A DNA stretch of 64,000 nt, taken from positions 2,108,001-2,172,000 of the forward strand of contig NZ_AP012326.1 of the NCBI RefSeq assembly GCF_001042595.1, read 5' to 3'. Below the pieces are notes generated by a model. That model ran no database searches, had not been told where the DNA came from, and saw only the letters and a program-made list of their open reading frames with translations. Numbering within the stretch: position 1 is the stretch's first letter; the number at the start of each line of letters is the position of its first letter. A program made the position numbers and the translations under genes. Positions 30,394 to 43,263 of the stretch are shown here, piece after piece. Source of the stretch: Bifidobacterium dentium JCM 1195 = DSM 20436 (GTDB taxonomy: Bacteria; Actinomycetota; Actinomycetes; Actinomycetales; Bifidobacteriaceae).

Positions 30394-30402
30394 AGTATTC
30401 GC

Positions 30403-31764
30403 CTATTGCCGTAAGGCGCTGAGATCCAAATCGAAGATCATCGATTCCGGCCGACGCTCCGGTTCGAGGAACATGCTCATATATAGCGGAAGGTAGGTAA
30501 TCCGACCATCCTGCCGAACGTTGCCTTTGCACAGCACATATGCTTTGTTCAACGCCCAATCATCAACCGCAAGCACATTATCCAGCGCTTTGTGCTTTGT
30601 CCAATCATTGCCTGACTTCACTTCGACAGGCAACACGATTCTGCCACTCTGCACCATGAAATCGACCTCGCCAAGACGATTCGTATTGAAATAATACAGG
30701 TCGAAACCATGCGCACGTAGCTCCTGGGCCACGACATTCTCCGTGATTGCACCCATATTCACGTCAAGGTTTCCCTGCAGTAAATCATATTGGATGCCGC
30801 CCATGGATGCCGTACATAGCAGACCGGTATCACTGAGAAACAGTTTGAACAGGCTGTGATTGCCGTTGCCTTCCAATGGCGGAACCGGCTCCTTGACGTT
30901 GTAACAGGGCAAGGCCACACCAGCATCCGCCAACCATAGGAAGCTACTGGCATAACGATTCTGCCGAGCATTTTTAGAAAGATCCGCAAGCACGAATCGA
31001 CGATTCTTGTCATCGAGTTGGGAAGGAATGGCATCAAAAATCGACCGAATCTTCGTTCTGTCCTTATCATCCGCATATTTGGCGATGTCAAGACGATACA
31101 AGGCCAACAGGTCGGACTGCAAGGCGATTACCTGCGCGATATCGTGAGTATCCACATACCTTTGAACCACGTCAGGCATGCCACCCACTACAACATACGC
31201 CTGGAACAGGCGCATCATGGTGTCATGCACCGAATCGCTGACGGGTTCGTTCCCGTTGAAGCGGTCTCGAAGCATATCAATGGTCGATTCCTGCACACCA
31301 TTGGCCAAGCAGAATTCTTCGAAGTCCAATGGATACATGCGCAGTTGCTCTTCAAATCCTACCGGGTAAGAAGCCACTTGCTTATTCTTCACGCCCAACA
31401 AAGAGCCCGTTTCCACATAGTCAAAACGACCGTCCTCCACTAGGAACTTGATGGCGGTACGCGCCGATGGGCACTCTTGGATTTCATCCAACAGAATCAA
31501 TGTATGCCCTGGCTCCAGTTGGGTCTGCAGATACGCAGTGAGGTTGGAGATAACGGCATCCGCACTCAGAGATCCGTCGAACACCGATGCGGCTCTGGGA
31601 TCTTCCAGAAAATTCAACTCGGCAAAACGCCTGTAGTGATGTTTAGCGAACTCACGAACCAACGTCGTCTTACCGATCTGCCTGGCACCGGTAATCATCA
31701 ACGCTTTCCGCGCATCGGTCCGCTTCCAGTGCTCCAGACGTTCCCACGCCTTGCGTTTCAGCAT
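30403..31764 (-). CDS. AAA ATPase with DUF4143 domain
   Basis: This protein of about 453 residues has an N-terminal AAA domain with Walker A TGARQIGKTTLV, Walker B HTLILLDEIQECPSA and sensor-like ETGSLLGVKN. The C-terminal DUF4143 domain has YVVVGGMPDVVQRYVDTHDI, LSDTGLLCTASMG and nuclease-like LGEVDFMVQSGRIVLPVEVK, an E-V-D-x10-15-E-x-K arrangement suggestive of a PD-(D/E)xK fold. The cellular role of this family is not established. The start at 31764 is preferred over 31779. It converges on hipA with a 9-bp gap. Confidence 0.88.
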   Translation of the reverse strand: MLKRKAWERLEHWKRTDARKALMITGARQIGKTTLVREFAKHHYRRFAELNFLEDPRAASVFDGSLSADAVISNLTAYLQTQLEPGHTLILLDEIQECPSARTAIKFLVEDGRFDYVETGSLLGVKNKQVASYPVGFEEQLRMYPLDFEEFCLANGVQESTIDMLRDRFNGNEPVSDSVHDTMMRLFQAYVVVGGMPDVVQRYVDTHDIAQVIALQSDLLALYRLDIAKYADDKDRTKIRSIFDAIPSQLDDKNRRFVLADLSKNARQNRYASSFLWLADAGVALPCYNVKEPVPPLEGNGNHSLFKLFLSDTGLLCTASMGGIQYDLLQGNLDVNMGAITENVVAQELRAHGFDLYYFNTNRLGEVDFMVQSGRIVLPVEVKSGNDWTKHKALDNVLAVDDWALNKAYVLCKGNVRQDGRITYLPLYMSMFLEPERRPESMIFDLDLSALRQ

Positions 31765-31831
31765 CACTCCACCTCGCAAAACTTGACTACCGTAACGGAA
31801 TCCGTGTCAACCAGTATATCAACTGCCACGT

Positions 31832-31930
31832 TTTCCGTAACGTTTTACATGGCTTTCGGGTGGCTTTCCGTAACGTTTTACACGGTTTTTAGGTGGCATA
31901 CCGCCACGTTTTACAAGAATGGCTGCCGTC
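31832..31930. repeat. Three tandem 33-bp imperfect repeats
   Basis: Units at 31832-31864, 31865-31897 and 31898-31930 share the core CGTAACGTTTTACA, or CGCCACGTTTTACA in the last. Units 1 and 2 are nearly identical, and unit 3 is more diverged. On the minus strand the period reads as an 11-residue repeat with VKRYGKPP. The array lies in the gap between the ATPase start and the sortase stop. Confidence 0.75.
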
Positions 31931-31970
31931 GAGTCGCTTGCATCTAGCCTTTCGACCGTCGCGCCCGGGT

Positions 31971-32906
31971 TCAGGTACGCTTCCGGCGCTTGCGAATCCA
32001 GCCGACCAGGCACGCAACCACGAGAATACCGATGGCGGCCAACGCCCCGGCAATCGCATAGACCCAAAGATGACGCGGCAACTCGGCAGGCGGCGTCACG
32101 GAACGTACGGATGGTCTTTCGGAGGCATTCCATCCCGCGGGCACCGTGGTGCGTTCGGCATGGACGAGCAGACGATGGGTGTTCACACCGTAGGGCGTAC
32201 AGGTCACGAGCGTCACCAGATCGCGGCCCTCCTCCGTAGTGAGGCTATCCACCTCACTCGGCAGCACGACTTCGGTGGAATAGACCTTATAGGCATGATC
32301 CTCCCCCAAAACGCGGATGATGAACCAATCACCCTTCTTGAGTTCGTCAAGCCGATCGAACAGTCGCGCCGTAGGAAGCCCCGTATGCCCGGCCAGAACA
32401 CTATGGGTGGAGTCACCTCCGATGGGTACCGAAGTGTTCACCACATGTCCCACTCCATGCGAAAGCGGCTCCTCTGTGGTGTAGTGGTAGATGGGCAGGT
32501 CAACGCTGATGGAAGGAATGATCAGCTCCGCCATGACTCCATCACCGGCGACGTTGAGCACACTCTCGTACTCGTCGTTGCCAGGGGAAGCATCATCTTG
32601 GTCGAAAGGGTCGACCACTCGCGAACTACCGTCGCGCAAATGGGCGTTGTATGCTTCCGCCTTCGCCTTTTCCGCGGAGAGATCCGCGGGTTTCAAGGCA
32701 GCGACCGTCTGCTGCTGAGTATTGCTCACAGCATCCTGCGCACGCTGATTAAGCCAGTCACTGACGAATGGGTAGCTTATCAGCGCAAGCCCCGCTAGCA
32801 GAATCAGACTGGCGGCGGCAAGTCGCAGACGGCGCCTTCGTCTCAAGCGTTTTTTGGTACCGGACACGGCAAAAGCAGGGGAACCCGAAGGTCCCCCTGC
32901 TTTCAC
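31971..32906 (-). CDS. Class C sortase (pilus polymerase)
   Basis: This protein of about 311 residues should polymerise the pilins encoded upstream. It has an N-terminal basic stretch, a membrane helix (LAAASLILLAGLALISYPF), the lid motif DPF in RVVDPFDQDD, the catalytic His in VLAGHTGLPTARLF, Cys in LVTLVTCTPYGVNTHRLLV and the nearby Arg. A C-terminal membrane helix (LWVYAIAGALAAIGILVVA) is typical of class C. The start is uncertain: GTG at 32906 has AAGG upstream, but GTG at 32867, just after a strong hairpin, gives the cleanest N-terminus. Confidence 0.93.
   Translation of the reverse strand: MKAGGPSGSPAFAVSGTKKRLRRRRRLRLAAASLILLAGLALISYPFVSDWLNQRAQDAVSNTQQQTVAALKPADLSAEKAKAEAYNAHLRDGSSRVVDPFDQDDASPGNDEYESVLNVAGDGVMAELIIPSISVDLPIYHYTTEEPLSHGVGHVVNTSVPIGGDSTHSVLAGHTGLPTARLFDRLDELKKGDWFIIRVLGEDHAYKVYSTEVVLPSEVDSLTTEEGRDLVTLVTCTPYGVNTHRLLVHAERTTVPAGWNASERPSVRSVTPPAELPRHLWVYAIAGALAAIGILVVACLVGWIRKRRKRT
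32872..32903 (-). terminator. UUCG-loop hairpin between major pilin and sortase (attenuator)
   Basis: A 14-bp stem (AAAGCAGGGGGACC paired with GGTTCCCCTGCTTT, one G-U pair) is closed by a TTCG tetraloop on the minus strand and followed by TTTTG. It begins about 60 bp after the pilin stop. It has the form of a partial intrinsic terminator that would reduce sortase transcript relative to pilin. Confidence 0.72.
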
Positions 32907-32961
32907 GGCGTGCCTTGCATGTTGTGCAGACGACAAGGTCTTCAGCCCGCCTGAGTGCTTC

Positions 32962-34407
32962 TTAGAGCTCTTGCTTGCGAGAGCGCAGGAAGAAGACGAT
33001 ACCCACTGCCAGCAGGGCCACACCGCCGGCGGTCAGGGCAAAGGTGCCCGCCGCACCGGTGATCGGGAGAGCCGGCTGCTTCGGATCGACGACGTTCACC
33101 GACGAAACCAGGTAGTTGTTTTCGACAACGGCGGTGGCCGGGTTGTCCTGGGTGCAGGACGCCTCGTTCAGCGTGAACGTCTGGTCGGCGACCTTGCTGA
33201 AGCCTGCCGGCACCACGGTCTCGGTAACGGTGTAGGTGCCTTCGCCGAGATCCTCGAAGTACACATAGCCGTTCTCGTCGGAGGTGGAGGTCAGCGTAGT
33301 GGTGGAACCATCCTTGTTGGTGACCTTCAGCTCGAAGACGGCACCCTTCAGGGCGTTGCCATCAGAATCGGTCTTCTTGAACACGAAACCGTAGGTCTTG
33401 ACCTTGGTCTTGCTGTCCGGAGTGACGGTCGTGGAGGTGTACGGGTTCGGGTTGAAGGTAACGGTGGCGGTGTTGCCGGTCACGTCATTGGCATCGTGAG
33501 AGAAGGCAGCCGAGGTGAGCTTGGCGTTGTAGGTGACCGTGATAGCCTCACCCGGGTGAGCCAGCACGTAAGCCTTGGCGAACTTGATGGTGTAGCCGTT
33601 GGTAGCCGCAGTGATGGTGTAGTCAGTACCGGAAACGGCAGCCACACCATTGATCTTGATGGACGTGGTGTCGATTTCAAGACCGGCGGTCGGCTGATCG
33701 TTGATTTCGAAGGTGGCATCCTTGGAGTCGGCCGGGTAGTTCGGAACGACGGTTTCCACCTTGAACGGGACCATATCGCCCACGCTGTACTTGTCGGTGG
33801 ACTCCTTGTATTCGGAGCCGACACCCTTCTTGATGGTCACATCGGTCTTCTTGACGTCGATGGTCTGGGCCGGGTGAGCATCATAGGTTCCGGAGGCATT
33901 GGCCACCGGGCTCGCGTCGACGACCATGTTCTGGTAGACGCGGGTCTGGCCGCTCGTGCTCGTCACGCGCACAAGGTAGTAGCCGCTACCAAGCGTAAGC
34001 GTGGCCGAGGTGCCGGAAGCGGTGGCGCTGGCCGCCGCAGTCGTACCGGCGTCAGCGAACGCCTTCGCGATGGCGCTGGCGGCATTCTGCATGTCGCTAC
34101 CCTGATGGAATGAATTGCCATCGGAAGCAACAACCTTGATCTTATCGATCGAGTCATAGGCAGACGGCAGATTGGCGGCCATCGTGTAGGTAAGGTTGTT
34201 CGACGCATCGATATCGGCATCGGCGATGAGGAAGGCCTCCACCGTGTCACCGTCAATCAGATTGTTGATCGTTACCGTGCTATCGGCCACATCGGTCGGG
34301 CTCGTCGGGGTAGCGTGCGCCGCGACCGGAGTGAGCACGAACGCCATGGCGATCGCTGCGAGCAAGCCTACCAGCATGCTCATCTTCTGCTTGAGAACGG
34401 TTCCCAT
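32962..34407 (-). CDS. Major pilin subunit (LPITG, sortase-dependent)
   Basis: This pilin of about 481 residues has a signal peptide (MSMLVGLLAAIAMAFVLTP, cut near VAAHA). Ig-like/CnaB regions include the E-box YTVTETVVPAGF and a pilin-motif-like TVVPNYPADS. The C-terminal sorting signal is LPITG followed by a hydrophobic helix and RSRKQEL. The sortase downstream would link subunits through the lysine-bearing motif. The ATG at 34407 is preferred because AAGGAGAAAAGGAT precedes it. It lies 48 bp after the large pilin gene. Confidence 0.94.
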   Translation of the reverse strand: MGTVLKQKMSMLVGLLAAIAMAFVLTPVAAHATPTSPTDVADSTVTINNLIDGDTVEAFLIADADIDASNNLTYTMAANLPSAYDSIDKIKVVASDGNSFHQGSDMQNAASAIAKAFADAGTTAAASATASGTSATLTLGSGYYLVRVTSTSGQTRVYQNMVVDASPVANASGTYDAHPAQTIDVKKTDVTIKKGVGSEYKESTDKYSVGDMVPFKVETVVPNYPADSKDATFEINDQPTAGLEIDTTSIKINGVAAVSGTDYTITAATNGYTIKFAKAYVLAHPGEAITVTYNAKLTSAAFSHDANDVTGNTATVTFNPNPYTSTTVTPDSKTKVKTYGFVFKKTDSDGNALKGAVFELKVTNKDGSTTTLTSTSDENGYVYFEDLGEGTYTVTETVVPAGFSKVADQTFTLNEASCTQDNPATAVVENNYLVSSVNVVDPKQPALPITGAAGTFALTAGGVALLAVGIVFFLRSRKQEL

Positions 34408-34455
34408 ATCCTTTTCTCCTTTTCTCATCGGGGATGGGAAGATTACATTGATTGC

Positions 34456-36831
34456 TCAGACCCGGCTGTGCAGTCCTGAGCCTGACCGCCGACGAAGCAT
34501 GACCGCACCGCCGCCTCCGATGGCCAGAAGGCTTCCGAGGAAGAGCAGTATGGCTGTCGCACCCGAGCCTGCCGTATGGGGCAAGTTGGGAATGGATTCG
34601 TCAGCGATAGTAATGGCGGCCACCCCGTCTTTGAGGGGCAGCGCAGCGGTTGTTCCGCCGCTGTCTTTGGTACTCACCGTTCCATCATGTGCAACGGAAA
34701 TCAGATGAGCCGCAGTATCAAGGTTGTAGCCAGCCGGGGCCTTGGTCTCTTTGAGCCAGTAGTCGGTACCCGGCATAAGGCCGTAGTAGTGGGCCTCTCC
34801 GTTGCCATCGGTCGTAACGACGGCGCCCGGAATGGCTGCAGTGAGATTGGCGTCGGAATACACGGTAGCGGGCTGGTCATTATCGTCGTAGACACCGTTG
34901 CCGTTATCCTTGTAGAGCGTAAATTCCGCACCGGGAAGCAGGCTACCGTCAGTCGACTTCTTGATGACAGTCAGCGGAATCTTGCGCGTGTTCTTGAATA
35001 CCGGGGCGTTGTCGCCATACGACGGAGTGAGTTTCAGCTTTCCTTCGCCGGCATCCTCCACCGTGACGGTGACGGTCTCGACGTGGGTATCGTACACAAC
35101 GCCCGGGGTGTTCTCCGCCTGTTCCTCAATGGTGTAGGTGAAGGTCTTACCGACATCACTCAGGGTGTACTTGATCTCCTTGAAGGTGACGTTGCCAGAG
35201 GCGTCGTTCTTCTGCGTGTCGAGCTCGGTTCCGTCCTGATCCTTCAATGTGAAGGTGAACTGGCCATCCTGCAAGGTGCCACCTTCAAGGTGCTTAATGG
35301 CCTTGAGCTGAATCGAGCCCTTGGCTTCGTAAGGTACGAACACGTGCACGGTGTTGGTGACCTTGGCGTTGTTGTTGATCGCCACGGAAGCTTGGTTGGG
35401 TACCTTCCAATAAGAAATCCCATTGATGGTCTCACGTTCATACGAATTCAAGTCAGCTGTAGTAGAAACCGGCACCTTGATATGGAATACATGCTCGTCT
35501 TCGGCATATCCATGCCCGGTATTCTTCGCCGTAGCCGTGATGGTCTGACCGGAGATGGCAATGGTCCAGTTGTCCGTGACGTCAACGTAGTTCCCCGATA
35601 CCTTCTTCAATACCTTCACCGTGGCGTGCGATGCATCCAAGGCATTATCCAAGGTATCGGTCATGACGATGGAAGACGCCTTGTTGGTGTCAGCCACATA
35701 GGGGAACTTTTCGGTGACATCGAAATCAGCGACATCACCACGATTATGAATCTGACGTTCCGGTGACTTTACCGGGGCTGGCCATTCAGGATAGACGGTG
35801 ACCGAGGAATCGTACCCCATTCCGGTATCGCATCCTTCTCCAGACCACTCAGTAACGAAACTGGGTCCTGCTTTTGCCACGACGGTGGAGATGTCATCCG
35901 GTACTTTTGAATCATCCTTTTTACTGGATTTGAACCATGTGGTCCCGCCCTCTTCAGAAACCTTAAGCGTGGTGTTGTTTCCAATCAGCGCAGACTTGTA
36001 TCCGCTGACCAGTCCTACGCCCTCTCTTCCTGGATGGGTGAAGTCGGCGATTCGGGGGAAAGCATTGGCGCCGTGATGAATAGGCTGGTCGATATCCCAA
36101 TACGTGACATTGAACTCATTGTCAGATTCGATCGGAGTATCGGTCCCGTCTTTGACCAGCGTGGTCGTGAAGCGCGATTTGATGCCAACATCAAATTCAG
36201 AGCTTCCATATCCGGTAAGTGACACAGGATAGCTGTTGGCAACCGCAGCAGCTGCAGGACCAAAGCGGTCTCCCAAATGGAATGGGCAGACAAAAGCGGG
36301 TTCCTTAAGGCCAACGGAGTCGAGCTGCCATGCATGCACTGAGTTAAACTCAACGATGGAGCTGATCCTCTCACCGGAGGTGGTGTACCCGATATTGTTG
36401 AAGCGCATCTTGAAGCCGCTCCACGTAGAGCCCGAAAGTGTCACTTTGCCGTTATCCGGAGCCCGGTACACCATGTACACACCGCTGTAATACGTATGTA
36501 TCCAGCGCATTTTCCAGCCGTTTTCCAAATCCACAGGATTACCGTCCTGGTTGGCGGGATCAGCAGGCGTCAGATCGGACACATTGTGCCACGATCCGTT
36601 AGCGTAATACTGAGCGGCGCTTTTCCAGTCGATGTTCTTATCGATGTAGACCGTGCCACCAACCGAATTCAGCAAATTATTCGTAGTGGTATACGGCGTG
36701 CCGGCATGCGCCGGAGCAGTCGTAAACAAGCAGGAACCCAGCGCCACGATAAGGCTGATGAGTACAACAATGATGTGCTTGGATATTTGGAAGGGTATTC
36801 GACTACCGAGGTGACGCTCGCCTGCGTTCAT
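34456..36831 (-). CDS. Large ancillary/tip pilin (sorting signal LPHTA)
   Basis: This surface protein of about 791 residues has a signal peptide (IIVVLISLIVALGSCLFTT). A long N-terminal region without clear family match may be the adhesive head. A Spy0128-type pilin isopeptide domain follows (about 540-640; FTFTLKDQDG, FTYTIEEQAENTPGVVYD), then a SpaA/CnaB domain with YWLKETKAPAGYNLDTAAH. The sorting signal LPHTA precedes a hydrophobic helix and RRRSGSG. The ATG at 36831 has AAGGAGAGAAGCG directly upstream. An ATG at 36867 immediately after the poly-G tract is the alternative. Confidence 0.92.
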   Translation of the reverse strand: MNAGERHLGSRIPFQISKHIIVVLISLIVALGSCLFTTAPAHAGTPYTTTNNLLNSVGGTVYIDKNIDWKSAAQYYANGSWHNVSDLTPADPANQDGNPVDLENGWKMRWIHTYYSGVYMVYRAPDNGKVTLSGSTWSGFKMRFNNIGYTTSGERISSIVEFNSVHAWQLDSVGLKEPAFVCPFHLGDRFGPAAAAVANSYPVSLTGYGSSEFDVGIKSRFTTTLVKDGTDTPIESDNEFNVTYWDIDQPIHHGANAFPRIADFTHPGREGVGLVSGYKSALIGNNTTLKVSEEGGTTWFKSSKKDDSKVPDDISTVVAKAGPSFVTEWSGEGCDTGMGYDSSVTVYPEWPAPVKSPERQIHNRGDVADFDVTEKFPYVADTNKASSIVMTDTLDNALDASHATVKVLKKVSGNYVDVTDNWTIAISGQTITATAKNTGHGYAEDEHVFHIKVPVSTTADLNSYERETINGISYWKVPNQASVAINNNAKVTNTVHVFVPYEAKGSIQLKAIKHLEGGTLQDGQFTFTLKDQDGTELDTQKNDASGNVTFKEIKYTLSDVGKTFTYTIEEQAENTPGVVYDTHVETVTVTVEDAGEGKLKLTPSYGDNAPVFKNTRKIPLTVIKKSTDGSLLPGAEFTLYKDNGNGVYDDNDQPATVYSDANLTAAIPGAVVTTDGNGEAHYYGLMPGTDYWLKETKAPAGYNLDTAAHLISVAHDGTVSTKDSGGTTAALPLKDGVAAITIADESIPNLPHTAGSGATAILLFLGSLLAIGGGGAVMLRRRSGSGLHSRV

Positions 36832-36868
36832 CGCTTCTCTCCTTGCATAAAAAAAGCAGTCATTCATA

Positions 36869-36883
36869 CCCCCCCCCCCCCCC
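36869..36883 (-). repeat. 15-nt poly-G tract upstream of pilus operon (phase-variation candidate)
   Basis: Fifteen consecutive C on the plus strand (G on the coding strand) end 38 bp before the preferred pilin start. Sequence ahead of it contains TTTTTGC and just after it TATGAA, so the tract sits where the spacer between promoter elements would be. Slippage would change spacing and so expression. A tract this long is hypermutable. Confidence 0.85.
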
Positions 36884-36914
36884 GCAAAAATCGGAGAGGG
36901 AGGAGGTACGACTG

Positions 36915-36925
36915 ACTGCCAGTCA
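36915..36925. promoter_or_regulatory. Small palindrome upstream of the poly-G tract
   Basis: GACTGGCAGTC on the minus strand is a perfect palindrome around one base, with a further partial repeat CAGTC beside it. It lies about 30 bp upstream of the poly-G tract and may be a regulator site of the pilus promoter. Confidence 0.35.
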
Positions 36926-37721
36926 CACCCGCAATTCTGTTTCTCTACATAACGAGAAGTTGAATTATTTTCTCTATGTAAGAAATATACCCATAAGATT
37001 TTCAGCTCCCCCTCTGCATAATTACAGCATTGACATCTTATTTGCCGTATAAACCGTCATTCAAGAGTGATTCCCGACGGAAAATCGAAGCACCGTCAAG
37101 GGTGTAGCTAGGGGTATGGCACGGCTTGTCGTTTTAGCTCTCAGCGCAACATACTGGCCATTCAAACGCGAGAATACGGAAAATTTATCGCTAGGCACAG
37201 TACCCACAAGGTCATGATGCATAAGGTTTAGGGGCCCCCACGAAATCACCGGCATCTTCGCCGGCAGAACACCCTCCAACTGCGTGCACTATCCGAAAAT
37301 AGAGGCGTATTGCTCAATCGTGCACGGCAATGCCATCCTCAGCACTAGTGCGGCAGTCACGACTTATTGGAAAATGGCCATCTGAACATCATTAAGAAGG
37401 TATGAGAGGCACAACAAACATCGTCTTGAAAACACGAATCGGAAAAACGTTGGTCAATCCGGATTGTGCGCGAAAGAAGGCATTCCTACGAAGCGGCATA
37501 TCAACAAAAGTGACTACAGCCGAGCTTGACGAGAAACTCCCCGAGAGATGCAGGGCATCATCACGAATACCCTTAATGGACGAATCCAGGATTCGGTTTA
37601 TCGAGCAAAAGGCGCCACCGACGAAGCCCGCAAACGTAAGTCCTAAAAACAGCGGGCATCAAGCCTCCCTGCTTCACGAGAAACGGAAGCAAGGAGATTT
37701 GATCCCTGAATGCATGACGCA
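36926..37721. other. Non-coding region with no recognisable gene
   Basis: Roughly 800 bp lies between the pilus operon and the zinc operon. Frames of 72 and 133 codons exist, but they have no ribosome-binding site, no recognisable motif and no codon bias. It looks like a decayed gene or an intergenic spacer. The first 150 bp is AT-rich and probably holds the pilus promoter. Confidence 0.5.
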
Positions 37722-37781
37722 ATGCCGCGCGATGCGTTGGCTCCCGTCATGGTTCACGGGAGCCAACACATCGCGCGGCAT
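37722..37781. repeat. 26-bp-arm hairpin downstream of the zinc-binding protein gene
   Basis: Arms of 26 nt (outer part ATGCCGCGCGATG) match with a single mismatch around an 8-nt loop. It begins 28 bp after the minus-strand zinc-binding protein stop at 37810. There is no T-run on either side, so it may act as an mRNA 3'-end stabiliser, a recombination relic or a bidirectional terminator. Confidence 0.8.
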
Positions 37782-37809
37782 GGACCCCAAACCGATCAGC
37801 TAACCGGCA

Positions 37810-39489
37810 TCAGTGGGCCAGCATTTCCTCGACGATCTGGTCCTTGTTCAGGCTGGACGGATAATACGTCGGCCAGTTATCCATCTCCTTGAGGGTCTCC
37901 TCCTGCGAATCGCCTGCGAAGATGTGGAAATGCGCGGCCTTGCCCGGGGCGATGCCATGGTCGGAGAACTGCACGACCTTGGGGGCGCCGTCAGGCACGT
38001 CACCGACTGCGGAGAACAGGTAGCGCACGCCACGATTGCCCTTCTTGTAGTCGAGGATCTTGTATCCGTCGTACTTGTAGGTGGCGGTGGTGTCCTTGCC
38101 ATTTCGGGTGAAGGTGATCTGGTCGCCCTTGATGGTGATGCGCTCCACATCGGTCTTGTAGCCTGCGTCATAGTACTTCGTATACTCTTCGGCGCTCATG
38201 GTGCCCTTCTTGGCCTTGGCTTCCATGACCTTCTTGAGGCTGCCGTCCTTCAGATACGGGTAGACGGATTGCCACTCCCCCTCATAGTCGGCCATCGAAC
38301 GATTGGCGACATCCTGGGTGAGGAACCAGCCGTTAGTGGTGTCGTTGGCCAGGGCCTGCTTGGCGATGGTCGTAAGCCAGCCCAGCAACGTGTCCTGGTT
38401 CTCGGGCAGCTGTTCGGTGGCGGAAATGATCGTCTTGTTGCTGCTCTTGGCGGCATCGTTGAGTTTTTCGGCGAAACCGTCCATCTCCTGCGGGTTGACG
38501 ACCAGCAGATCCACGTCGGATCCGGAAACGATATCGAGGGTGGATTTGAGATCGGCGGCGGAAGGCTCACCTTCGCTGTTCATGGCATTCGTATAGGATT
38601 CCGGCGTCTTGTCGGTGGCGCCAAGATAGTCGAGCAGGTAGCTGATGATCGATTCGGTGGCCACATACGAGCGCTTCACGCCGGCGGCACGAGCCTTGTT
38701 GACCATGGCGACGAATTCGGCATAGTCCGCATTCCAGGCATTCGAATGACGCTGTGCGGTGGCCGCGGTATCGGTGCCTTCACCGGCCTTAGCGGTGTAA
38801 GCGTCCGTAATGGCGGTCGCGGCTTTGAGTACGGCTTCGGGGCTGAACCACAGGTGAGGGTTCGTGGAACCGTGATGATGGTGGTGGCCGGACTCGCCAT
38901 CGCCGTCCTCATGCTCATGCTCATGCTCCTCGGTGGCGGTGATACCCATGAGATCACCCACATTGACGATGGTCTGCTTGCTCTTGTCGAGCTGCGCCTT
39001 CTCGGCCCAACCGTCGTAGCCGGCTCCGTTGATCACCACGATGTCGGCCTTGGACAGCTTGGCCAGATCGGCTGGCGTAGGCTCATAATCATGCGGCTCC
39101 ACGGAGGTGGAATTAATCAGGGATGTGACCTGCGCGCATTTGCCGCCAAGCTCCTGGGCGAGCGCACCCCACTGGTTGACGGAGGCGACCACGGTGAACG
39201 TGGTGCTGCACGAATCGTTGGCGTCGCTGACCGTGGAGGTCGAACCGTGAGATGCAGCGGAGGCGTTCCTGTCGTTTTTTGCATTGAGGAACGCGAATCC
39301 GCCGACGACGAGTCCGGAAACCAAGGCGCCCACGATGAACGCTACGATGATGGCGATGATACCCTTCCTGCCGATGGCATCCGTGCTCGCTTTCGTCACG
39401 GCCATGGTATCGGACGAATCTCCGGACGGTTCGGATGCCGTATTCTCCGGATTTTTGCTTTCGGGCTGGCTGAGATTGTTCTCGGTCAT
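37810..39489 (-). CDS. Zinc ABC-transporter binding protein, AdcA type (ZnuA-ZinT fusion)
   Basis: This 559-residue protein has an N-terminal membrane anchor (IIAIIVAFIVGALVSGLVVGG). A ZnuA-like domain follows (VVASVNQWGALAQELGG, then STSVEPHDYEPTPADLAKL), with a His/acid-rich loop EEHEHEHEDGDGESGHHHHH. From about residue 385 comes a ZinT domain (MADYEGEWQSVYPYLKDGSL, HFHIFAGDSQEE). It should capture Zn2+ outside the membrane for an ABC importer encoded elsewhere. It has no lipobox and seems anchored by its helix. It is last in the Zur-linked ribosomal operon, 54 bp after rpmF. Confidence 0.94.
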   Translation of the reverse strand: MTENNLSQPESKNPENTASEPSGDSSDTMAVTKASTDAIGRKGIIAIIVAFIVGALVSGLVVGGFAFLNAKNDRNASAASHGSTSTVSDANDSCSTTFTVVASVNQWGALAQELGGKCAQVTSLINSTSVEPHDYEPTPADLAKLSKADIVVINGAGYDGWAEKAQLDKSKQTIVNVGDLMGITATEEHEHEHEDGDGESGHHHHHGSTNPHLWFSPEAVLKAATAITDAYTAKAGEGTDTAATAQRHSNAWNADYAEFVAMVNKARAAGVKRSYVATESIISYLLDYLGATDKTPESYTNAMNSEGEPSAADLKSTLDIVSGSDVDLLVVNPQEMDGFAEKLNDAAKSSNKTIISATEQLPENQDTLLGWLTTIAKQALANDTTNGWFLTQDVANRSMADYEGEWQSVYPYLKDGSLKKVMEAKAKKGTMSAEEYTKYYDAGYKTDVERITIKGDQITFTRNGKDTTATYKYDGYKILDYKKGNRGVRYLFSAVGDVPDGAPKVVQFSDHGIAPGKAAHFHIFAGDSQEETLKEMDNWPTYYPSSLNKDQIVEEMLAH

Positions 39490-42384: not shown

Positions 42385-42855
42385 TCAGCTTCCGGAATCG
42401 GCCTGTCTCCAGATCTGTTCATCCTTGATGAGCTGGGTGCCGTAACGCATCTTGAGCTGGGATACCAGATCGTCGATATGCCGCTGCGCTTCGATGATCT
42501 CGGCACTGTACTTCTGCATTCTCGCCTGATTGAAGGCGATGCCGGTCTCCTCCGGCATCTCACCGACCACATGAGGCTTCTCACCGGACAGCGCATATGC
42601 CGCCGCCTCATCCATCAGTTTCCGGTCGCCGCTCCACCTGCTGATGCAACGCTCGATGCGCTTCGCACCGATCAATTCAAGCGGCATCCCCACACTGGAG
42701 AAAATCTGATAGGGGCGCAATCCGCGCATGTACCAGTACATGCAGTAGACCTGGAATTCATGGGCGTAGGTGATCCGTTTGCTTGTCACATGGGCGATCG
42801 CCGGCAGCGATTCGAGGTAGCAGACCTCTTCCAGCGTGAATTCGACGTTGGTCAT
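42385..42855 (-). CDS. Unknown protein with HTH-like core (tandem paralogue A)
   Basis: This 156-residue protein is not recognised with certainty. Its core, RITYAHEFQVYCMYWYMRG with LELIGAKRIERCISRW, recurs in the next upstream protein. The RPxxIFSxxGxP spacing looks like a transposase-type helix-turn-helix. The C-terminal 50 residues are helical and may form a coiled coil. It lies 12 bp after its paralogue and 41 bp before the HAD gene. Confidence 0.7.
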   Translation of the reverse strand: MTNVEFTLEEVCYLESLPAIAHVTSKRITYAHEFQVYCMYWYMRGLRPYQIFSSVGMPLELIGAKRIERCISRWSGDRKLMDEAAAYALSGEKPHVVGEMPEETGIAFNQARMQKYSAEIIEAQRHIDDLVSQLKMRYGTQLIKDEQIWRQADSGS

Positions 42856-42867
42856 ACCCCATCATTC

Positions 42868-43263
42868 CTAACGTAGATGAGCGATCATCTTGCGGATACG
42901 CTCCTGCAACGTGATGATCGTTCTATTGAGCTCCTGTATTTCGGACAGACTCGAAAGGATGATCTCATCACGCATGGCGGGCTTTCGTCCCTCTTCATCG
43001 AGCTGTCGGACCTCGGCCATGAGCTGGGGGTTGCTCTTCCACCTGCTGATGCACCGTTCGATGCGCTTCGGCCCGATCAAGCGCGAAGGAAGTCCCGCAT
43101 TGGAAAAGATGACGCTCGGTCGTGTGCCATGCACGTATTGGTACATGCAGTACACCTGAAACGCATGCGAGTAGGTGATACGGCTCGTGGTCGCATGTTC
43201 CACAACCGCCAGGGACTCGAGTTCCTCGATCTCCTGATCCGTAAACTTCTTATTGTTCCGCAT
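42868..43263 (-). CDS. Unknown protein with HTH-like core (tandem paralogue B)
   Basis: This 131-residue paralogue of the following gene shares RITYSHAFQVYCMYQYVHG, then RPSVIFSNAGLPSRLIG and KRIERCISRWK. An N-terminal acidic helix (DQEIEELESL) and a C-terminal helical region with ELNRTIITLQERIRK suggest oligomerisation. GGGGAAT precedes the ATG. It is the first gene of a probable three-gene operon with the HAD protein. No known function can be assigned. Confidence 0.72.
   Translation of the reverse strand: MRNNKKFTDQEIEELESLAVVEHATTSRITYSHAFQVYCMYQYVHGTRPSVIFSNAGLPSRLIGPKRIERCISRWKSNPQLMAEVRQLDEEGRKPAMRDEIILSSLSEIQELNRTIITLQERIRKMIAHLR

Follow-up and report, generated by a model that had tools for sequence, protein, structure and literature searches.

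A run of 15 G lies just upstream of a sortase-pilus operon in Bifidobacterium dentium JCM 1195, within the 64,000-nucleotide stretch of DNA analysed here (the window). The tract is confirmed and the locus is already known; what changes is how it is read, and the most likely reading is that of a leader terminator or attenuator with a mutable arm. Judged from the sequence and from folding models, the G15 tract on balance probably forms the 3′ arm, prone to slippage, of an intrinsic-terminator or attenuator hairpin within the 5′ leader that precedes the pilus genes.

The G tract and the start of the pilus operon

The genes and signals around the tract are as follows (positions of the window).
34456-36831, minus strand: first pilin gene, 791 aa, with a signal peptide and FctA and SpaA domains; its start lies downstream of the tract
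32962-34428, minus strand: major pilin gene with an LPITG anchor, a 488-aa frame in which an internal start is possible
31971-33023, minus strand: class C sortase frame, its true start probably further in
36837-36844, minus strand: Shine-Dalgarno sequence AAGGAGAG of ATG 36831, by direct reading
36869-36883, minus strand: G15 tract, whose last 14 G (36882-36869) make up the predicted hairpin's 3′ arm
36864-36926, minus strand: 20-codon GTG frame across the tract, ending at a TGA with 15 G and fusing with the pilin frame with 13 G

The minus strand reads ...CCGATTTTTGC-G15-TATGAATGACTGCTTTTTTTATGCAAGGAGAGAAGCGATG, or in longer context ...GGCAGTCAGTCGTACCTCCTCCCTCTCCGATTTTTGC-G15-TATGAATGACTGCTTTTTTTATGCAAGGAGAGAAGCGATGAACGCAGG..., by direct reading. 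The original prediction of 15 consecutive G is thus confirmed, with exactly 15 at 36883-36869, and the TTTTTGC and TATGAA elements that it named are both present as flanks; the ATG at 36867, which it described as abutting the tract, is separated from it by one T. It had also placed the long tract outside the pilin gene and upstream of the sortase-pilus operon, and this is supported, as the Shine-Dalgarno sequence, start codon and signal peptide of the first pilin all come after the tract, with 37 nt between the tract and ATG 36831. The two closest pilin homologues (98% and 89%) are 791-aa entries that start at the Met of this ATG. The ATG at 36867 has no Shine-Dalgarno sequence outside the hairpin. 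When ATG, GTG and TTG starts were scanned from 37300, the only frames that cross the tract began at GTG 36926 and TTG 36887, and a convincing Shine-Dalgarno sequence was found for neither; a tract of 13 G would leave the pilin frame open back to GTG 36926. The previous gene on the same strand, encoding a ZnuA-ZinT protein, ends at 37810, about 0.9 kb upstream of the hairpin.

Tracts of this length are rare. G8 has eight overlapping matches, all within the G15 run, against a mean of 1.65 and a maximum of 6 in 100 dinucleotide shuffles. The 2.64-Mb genome holds five tracts of at least 10 G and, among the matches listed, G15 is the sole one of at least 12. At the other pilus locus of the same genome, a G10 tract starting at 629859 lies in signal-peptide codons, after the Shine-Dalgarno sequence and ATG and in frame, whereas the G15 tract lies outside the part of the first pilin gene that runs from start codon to pilin body.

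The locus is in print. Table 1 of Penno et al. 2022 (PMC9187656) gives it as a poly-G pilus locus with a frameshift mechanism, and prints 629858-629867 (10 G) and 2144867-2144879 (13 G) for NCTC11816 and 13 G at BDP_1874-76 for strain Bd1. A potentially slippage-prone tract, as the original prediction had it, is supported; the locus stands with 13 G in two B. dentium records. The genome coordinates here are 629859-629868 (10 G) and 2144869-2144883 (15 G), and such near-identical positions suggest that the NCTC11816 record is another assembly of the same strain. We take NCTC 11816 to be the type strain. If there are indeed two assemblies of one strain, then 13 versus 15 G reflects either real slippage or homopolymer sequencing error. 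The motifs that Foroni et al. 2011 print for Bd1 ORF 1875 are present in the second pilin here, and their qRT-PCR table shows '-' for cluster 1874-1876 in all six columns. A 2025 paper on B. dentium (PMC12104195) again proposes slippage at poly-G pilus clusters, its available text naming no hairpin. The pyrimidine partner arm, outer stem and T7 run described below are likewise absent from the available account of Penno et al. and from the original prediction.

A predicted terminator-like hairpin in the operon leader

Immediately upstream of the Shine-Dalgarno sequence, the following elements were found.
36855-36920, minus strand: whole terminator-like hairpin, with outer stem GGCAGTCA/TGACTGCT, inner 19-bp stem and 10-nt loop; -49.5 kcal/mol
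36893-36906, minus strand: 14-nt pyrimidine arm CCTCCTCCCTCTCC, which pairs with the G tract in the predicted fold
36849-36855, minus strand: T7 run directly after the stem, by direct reading
36904-36930, minus strand: antiterminator-like hairpin GGGTGTGACTG/CAGTCGTACCT, which excludes the outer terminator stem; -12.8 kcal/mol

The G tract (13-15) and the pyrimidine arm (14) are of matching length, and the stem continues beyond them through TCGTA/TATGA and then the 8-bp outer stem. A G+C-rich stem followed by a T run, the form of an intrinsic terminator, is therefore present. A 101-nt piece of the leader folds at -51.2 kcal/mol (z -6.0), and none of 200 dinucleotide shuffles does as well; the same holds with the G15 run kept fixed, whether the flanks are shuffled (0/5000) or replaced by random pieces of the window (0/3000). 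In a 66-nt scan of both strands of the window the site has rank 3, ranks 1 and 2 being the two strands of a palindrome at 37717-37783. With -57.1 and -52.7 kcal/mol on its two strands, that palindrome is the window's strongest fold, and it lies just after the ZnuA-ZinT fusion gene (37810-39489, minus strand). The terminator score was calculated with the formula of d'Aubenton-Carafa, and across the window's 112 T-run hairpins a single value is positive, that of the G15 hairpin (+37.4; the next reaches -10.4). A simple terminator scan with a loop limit of 8 did not list the site, where the loop is 10. Rfam gave six weak matches in 36600-37900, all far under their gathering scores.

Only 10 nt separate the hairpin from the Shine-Dalgarno sequence, which leaves no room for a promoter downstream of it, and the operon transcript must therefore either cross the hairpin or start inside it. 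As the G run is one arm of a strong terminator-like hairpin, the site probably affects how much of the operon is transcribed and not its reading frame. The effect on transcription put forward in the original prediction thus stays likely, through a terminator hairpin and not through promoter spacing.

For the upstream hairpin, as good a fold occurred in 25 of 5000 shuffles, and genomic 11-mers served as well in its 5′ arm in 19 of 20000 trials. When successive prefixes of the leader are folded, it forms first, and the outer stem of the terminator wins once complete. Two mutually exclusive hairpins in this order give, in the folding model, an attenuator-like layout. Promoter calling on the minus strand of 30400-38000 returned none, and no convincing promoter was found upstream of the hairpin, the best consensus match being 8/12.

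From these observations we propose the following series of events. A transcript begun at a promoter upstream would first fold the 11-bp antiterminator-like hairpin; the emerging poly-G would then zip onto the pyrimidine arm and displace it, and with the 27-bp stem completed, transcription would end at the T7 run, just before the Shine-Dalgarno sequence. Expression of the operon would come mainly from readthrough, or from occasions when some factor holds the terminator open. Slippage would alter the length of the arm and in this way may tune the attenuator and, with it, piliation.

Effect of tract length

In ordinary folding, each added G lowers the hairpin energy by about 2.7 kcal/mol, from -14.2 kcal/mol with no G to a peak of -51.3 with 14; with 13 G it is -47.2, and beyond the peak it levels off (-49.5 for 15, -49.0 for 21). 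Over 13-21 G the energy keeps within -47 to -51 and the terminator score within 31 to 41, and slippage is therefore not predicted to act as a switch; a simple ON/OFF mechanism through hairpin stability is unsupported. The terminator score stays above 0 down to 2 G. By this model one-base slips near 13-15 G should have little effect, and large contractions alone would weaken termination. The original prediction had also allowed for an effect on translation initiation, which finds no support here, the predicted accessibility of the Shine-Dalgarno sequence being flat at 0.40 over 4-23 G when quadruplex energies are left out.

With G-quadruplex energies included, the predictions differ. For the tract by itself the energy is -18 with 13 G and -36 with 15, and in ViennaRNA the fold of the leader switches between 14 and 15 G at all three leader lengths; at 15 G, in all three, the terminator is lost to the upstream hairpin and the pyrimidine arm pairs with the Shine-Dalgarno sequence. 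These energies are coarse and the prediction is sensitive to the model: at 16 G the outer stem is kept in one of the three leader lengths, and when the hairpin is folded alone the outer stem by the T7 run stays at 15-17 G. Such folds could describe an RNA switch that counts tract length, with a quadruplex threshold at 15 G and a change in both termination and translation with each one-base slip. At 14 G or fewer, the tract would serve solely as a terminator arm; at 15 or more, its guanines would be enough for a G-quadruplex of three layers (four runs of three, joined by one-G loops); this would remove the arm, let the antiterminator hairpin form and free the pyrimidine arm to cover the Shine-Dalgarno sequence. 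The printed and observed lengths (13, 13 and 15) fall on both sides of this 14/15 threshold. We regard the counting switch as very doubtful.

Comparison within the genus and beyond

Among 112 genomes of the genus, relatives of the leader DNA were found in its own genome alone, and the structure of the G15 hairpin is accordingly proposed from one sequence, with no relatives to provide covariation. A profile of the pilin (E<=1e-60) likewise found its own genome alone among the 112 genomes of the genus and 396 of the order. When 59 relatives were searched with the single protein, 24 of them, its own genome included, showed partial matches, and in genomes of the species five relatives match the pilin over C-terminal stretches only. 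Profile and exact-pattern searches of viral contigs gave no matches.

We surveyed 92 distinct tracts of at least 12 G, taken from among the matches listed and from 60 further stretches and thus fewer than the genus holds in total. The G15 site had the lowest z (-5.9), scored for 88 tract-arm combinations in which at least half of the tract is paired. A positive terminator score was obtained for three of the 92 (45.4, 10.1 and 2.9), the highest belonging to the G15 site with its stem ending before T7. A first hairpin survey, of 68 tracts with other flanks, did not flag the G15 site; the other surveys did. With 11 of the 92 set aside because their flanks were short or a C or G run of at least 10 lay next to them, a pyrimidine run of at least 9 lay within 40 nt upstream in 7 of 81 tracts, compared with 0-2 of 81 at six other offsets. 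The pattern G9-N5-20-T6 occurs in 11 of the 112 genus genomes and its reversed control in 13, and on its own it is therefore uninformative.

A locus of another species (L177, 960-1075) carries a G12-armed hairpin whose tail is T-rich and which lies 56 nt ahead of a signal-peptide protein's start, the previous frame ending about 150 nt upstream of the hairpin; with a z of only -2.2, it is suggestive of a possible second, independent case of a similar leader layout. In a further species (L082), a G13-armed hairpin follows a gene as an ordinary terminator would; G-armed hairpins elsewhere can thus be ordinary end-of-gene terminators.

Some further features of G tracts were seen in passing. One genus genome of about 2.0 Mb (G060; L078, L167-L186) has 28 tracts of at least 12 G among the matches listed; it is in 100 contigs, so assembly artefacts are possible. 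Another (G024) repeats a motif of G9 plus TCGATCTCGGTGCTTTTTT at seven places (L054, L064, L073-L077), one copy being G10 plus CGATCT. Small HTH ORFs recur in the B. dentium genome, on the minus strand of the window at 42388-42855 and 42871-43263 and elsewhere at L001 1602-2087 and L003 1700-2266; the L003 ORF scores above the Pfam cut-off for HTH_Tnp_2 and the two in the window below it. Two small HTH ORFs have a sortase gene as neighbour and a G11 tract immediately upstream (genome 173280 and 356502), and near position 1500 of L003 (genome 356502) the end of the G11 tract forms, by eye, a GGGGGTGC/GCACCCCC inverted repeat with downstream sequence. Similar HTH N-termini, also by eye, occur next to G tracts of other species (L128, L140, L141, L150).

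Alternative explanations

Other readings of the site have to be weighed against a leader attenuator. The hairpin may be a plain terminator of an upstream transcript, ending a small RNA or insulating against readthrough, with its poly-G arm there by chance and pilus expression set elsewhere. The 0.9-kb gap could contain such an unannotated transcript, and the L082 hairpin is a precedent for a G-armed terminator after a gene, but the 10 nt before the Shine-Dalgarno sequence oblige the operon transcript to cross the hairpin or start within it, and Rfam gave no family at or above its gathering score at the site; we consider this reading unlikely. Quite unlikely, too, is the promoter spacing of the original prediction, in which the tract lies between a -35 element and the -10 TATGAA and slippage alters promoter strength. 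Transcription from about 7 nt past TATGAA would yield a short leader that includes the Shine-Dalgarno sequence, and spacer tracts of this kind are known elsewhere. The poly-C repeat of Bordetella fim, for example, lies outside the gene and spaces promoter elements. The repeat of Neisseria meningitidis NadA (PMC2791445) is similarly outside the gene and proposed to change transcription, and for B. breve UCC2003 Penno et al. (PMC9187656) note promoter spacers that contain G tracts. The fim and NadA repeats work by the spacing of promoter or operator elements, however, and convincing ones were not found here: with spacers of 13-20, hexamers around the tract match the -35 at 0-3 of 6 positions and the -10 (TATGAA) at 4 of 6, so that no recognisable -35 and -10 pair flanks it. 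Promoter spacing also leaves the pyrimidine arm, outer stem and T7 run unexplained, and on the poor hexamers we rejected it as the main reading.

Two readings involve translation across the tract. In attenuation coupled to a leader peptide, ribosomes would open the terminator and slippage would move their stop site. This model is established for pil1 of Streptococcus gallolyticus (Danne et al. 2014, PMC3894217), where it depends on a repeat in the leader peptide whether a premature terminator is opened by ribosomes, and the GTG 36926 frame does cross the tract, stopping just after it with 15 G and joining the pilin frame with 13 G. That frame lacks a convincing Shine-Dalgarno sequence, though, and in every frame a ribosome would have unfolded the 5′ arm before arriving at the tract, whose length should therefore matter little; we judge the reading decidedly improbable. 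The intragenic frameshift switch that Penno et al. give for the locus in their Table 1 could likewise draw on the pilin frame being open to GTG 36926 with 13 G. Against it stand the gene start after the tract, the two homologues that begin at the same Met and the contrast with the 629859 locus, which does show the intragenic layout; we rejected it as extremely improbable.

Relation to known systems

The leader attenuator that we favour has points in common with two known groups of pilus loci. Like the B. dentium locus, bbr_0113 and bbr_1889 of B. breve UCC2003 (PMC9187656) have poly-G at the head of a sortase-pilus operon; their tracts lie in the first gene, between signal peptide and pilin body, whereas here the tract stands before the Shine-Dalgarno sequence, in a terminator-like hairpin. 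With pil1 (PMC3894217) the locus shares a sortase-pilus operon, a mutable repeat and a premature terminator hairpin in the leader, the last seen here in sequence and folding. In pil1 the repeat is GCAGA and belongs to a translated leader-peptide gene that precedes the terminator; at the B. dentium locus the repeat itself forms one arm of the predicted terminator. The pil1 system is driven by ribosomes, and the outcome proposed here is similar, although a good leader peptide was not found. A literature search, mostly of brief records, found no description of a homopolymer as a terminator arm, which leaves its absence from the literature unproven.

Implications for pilus variation

The published account of pilus variation by slippage in bifidobacteria is that of a switch in reading frame. 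Should the G15 tract work as one arm of a leader terminator, mutable DNA of this kind would act on transcription too. Frame counting would then give wrong ON/OFF calls at this locus, and surveys of tract length would have to read it differently. Piliation, if this is true, would perhaps be graded and not all-or-none.
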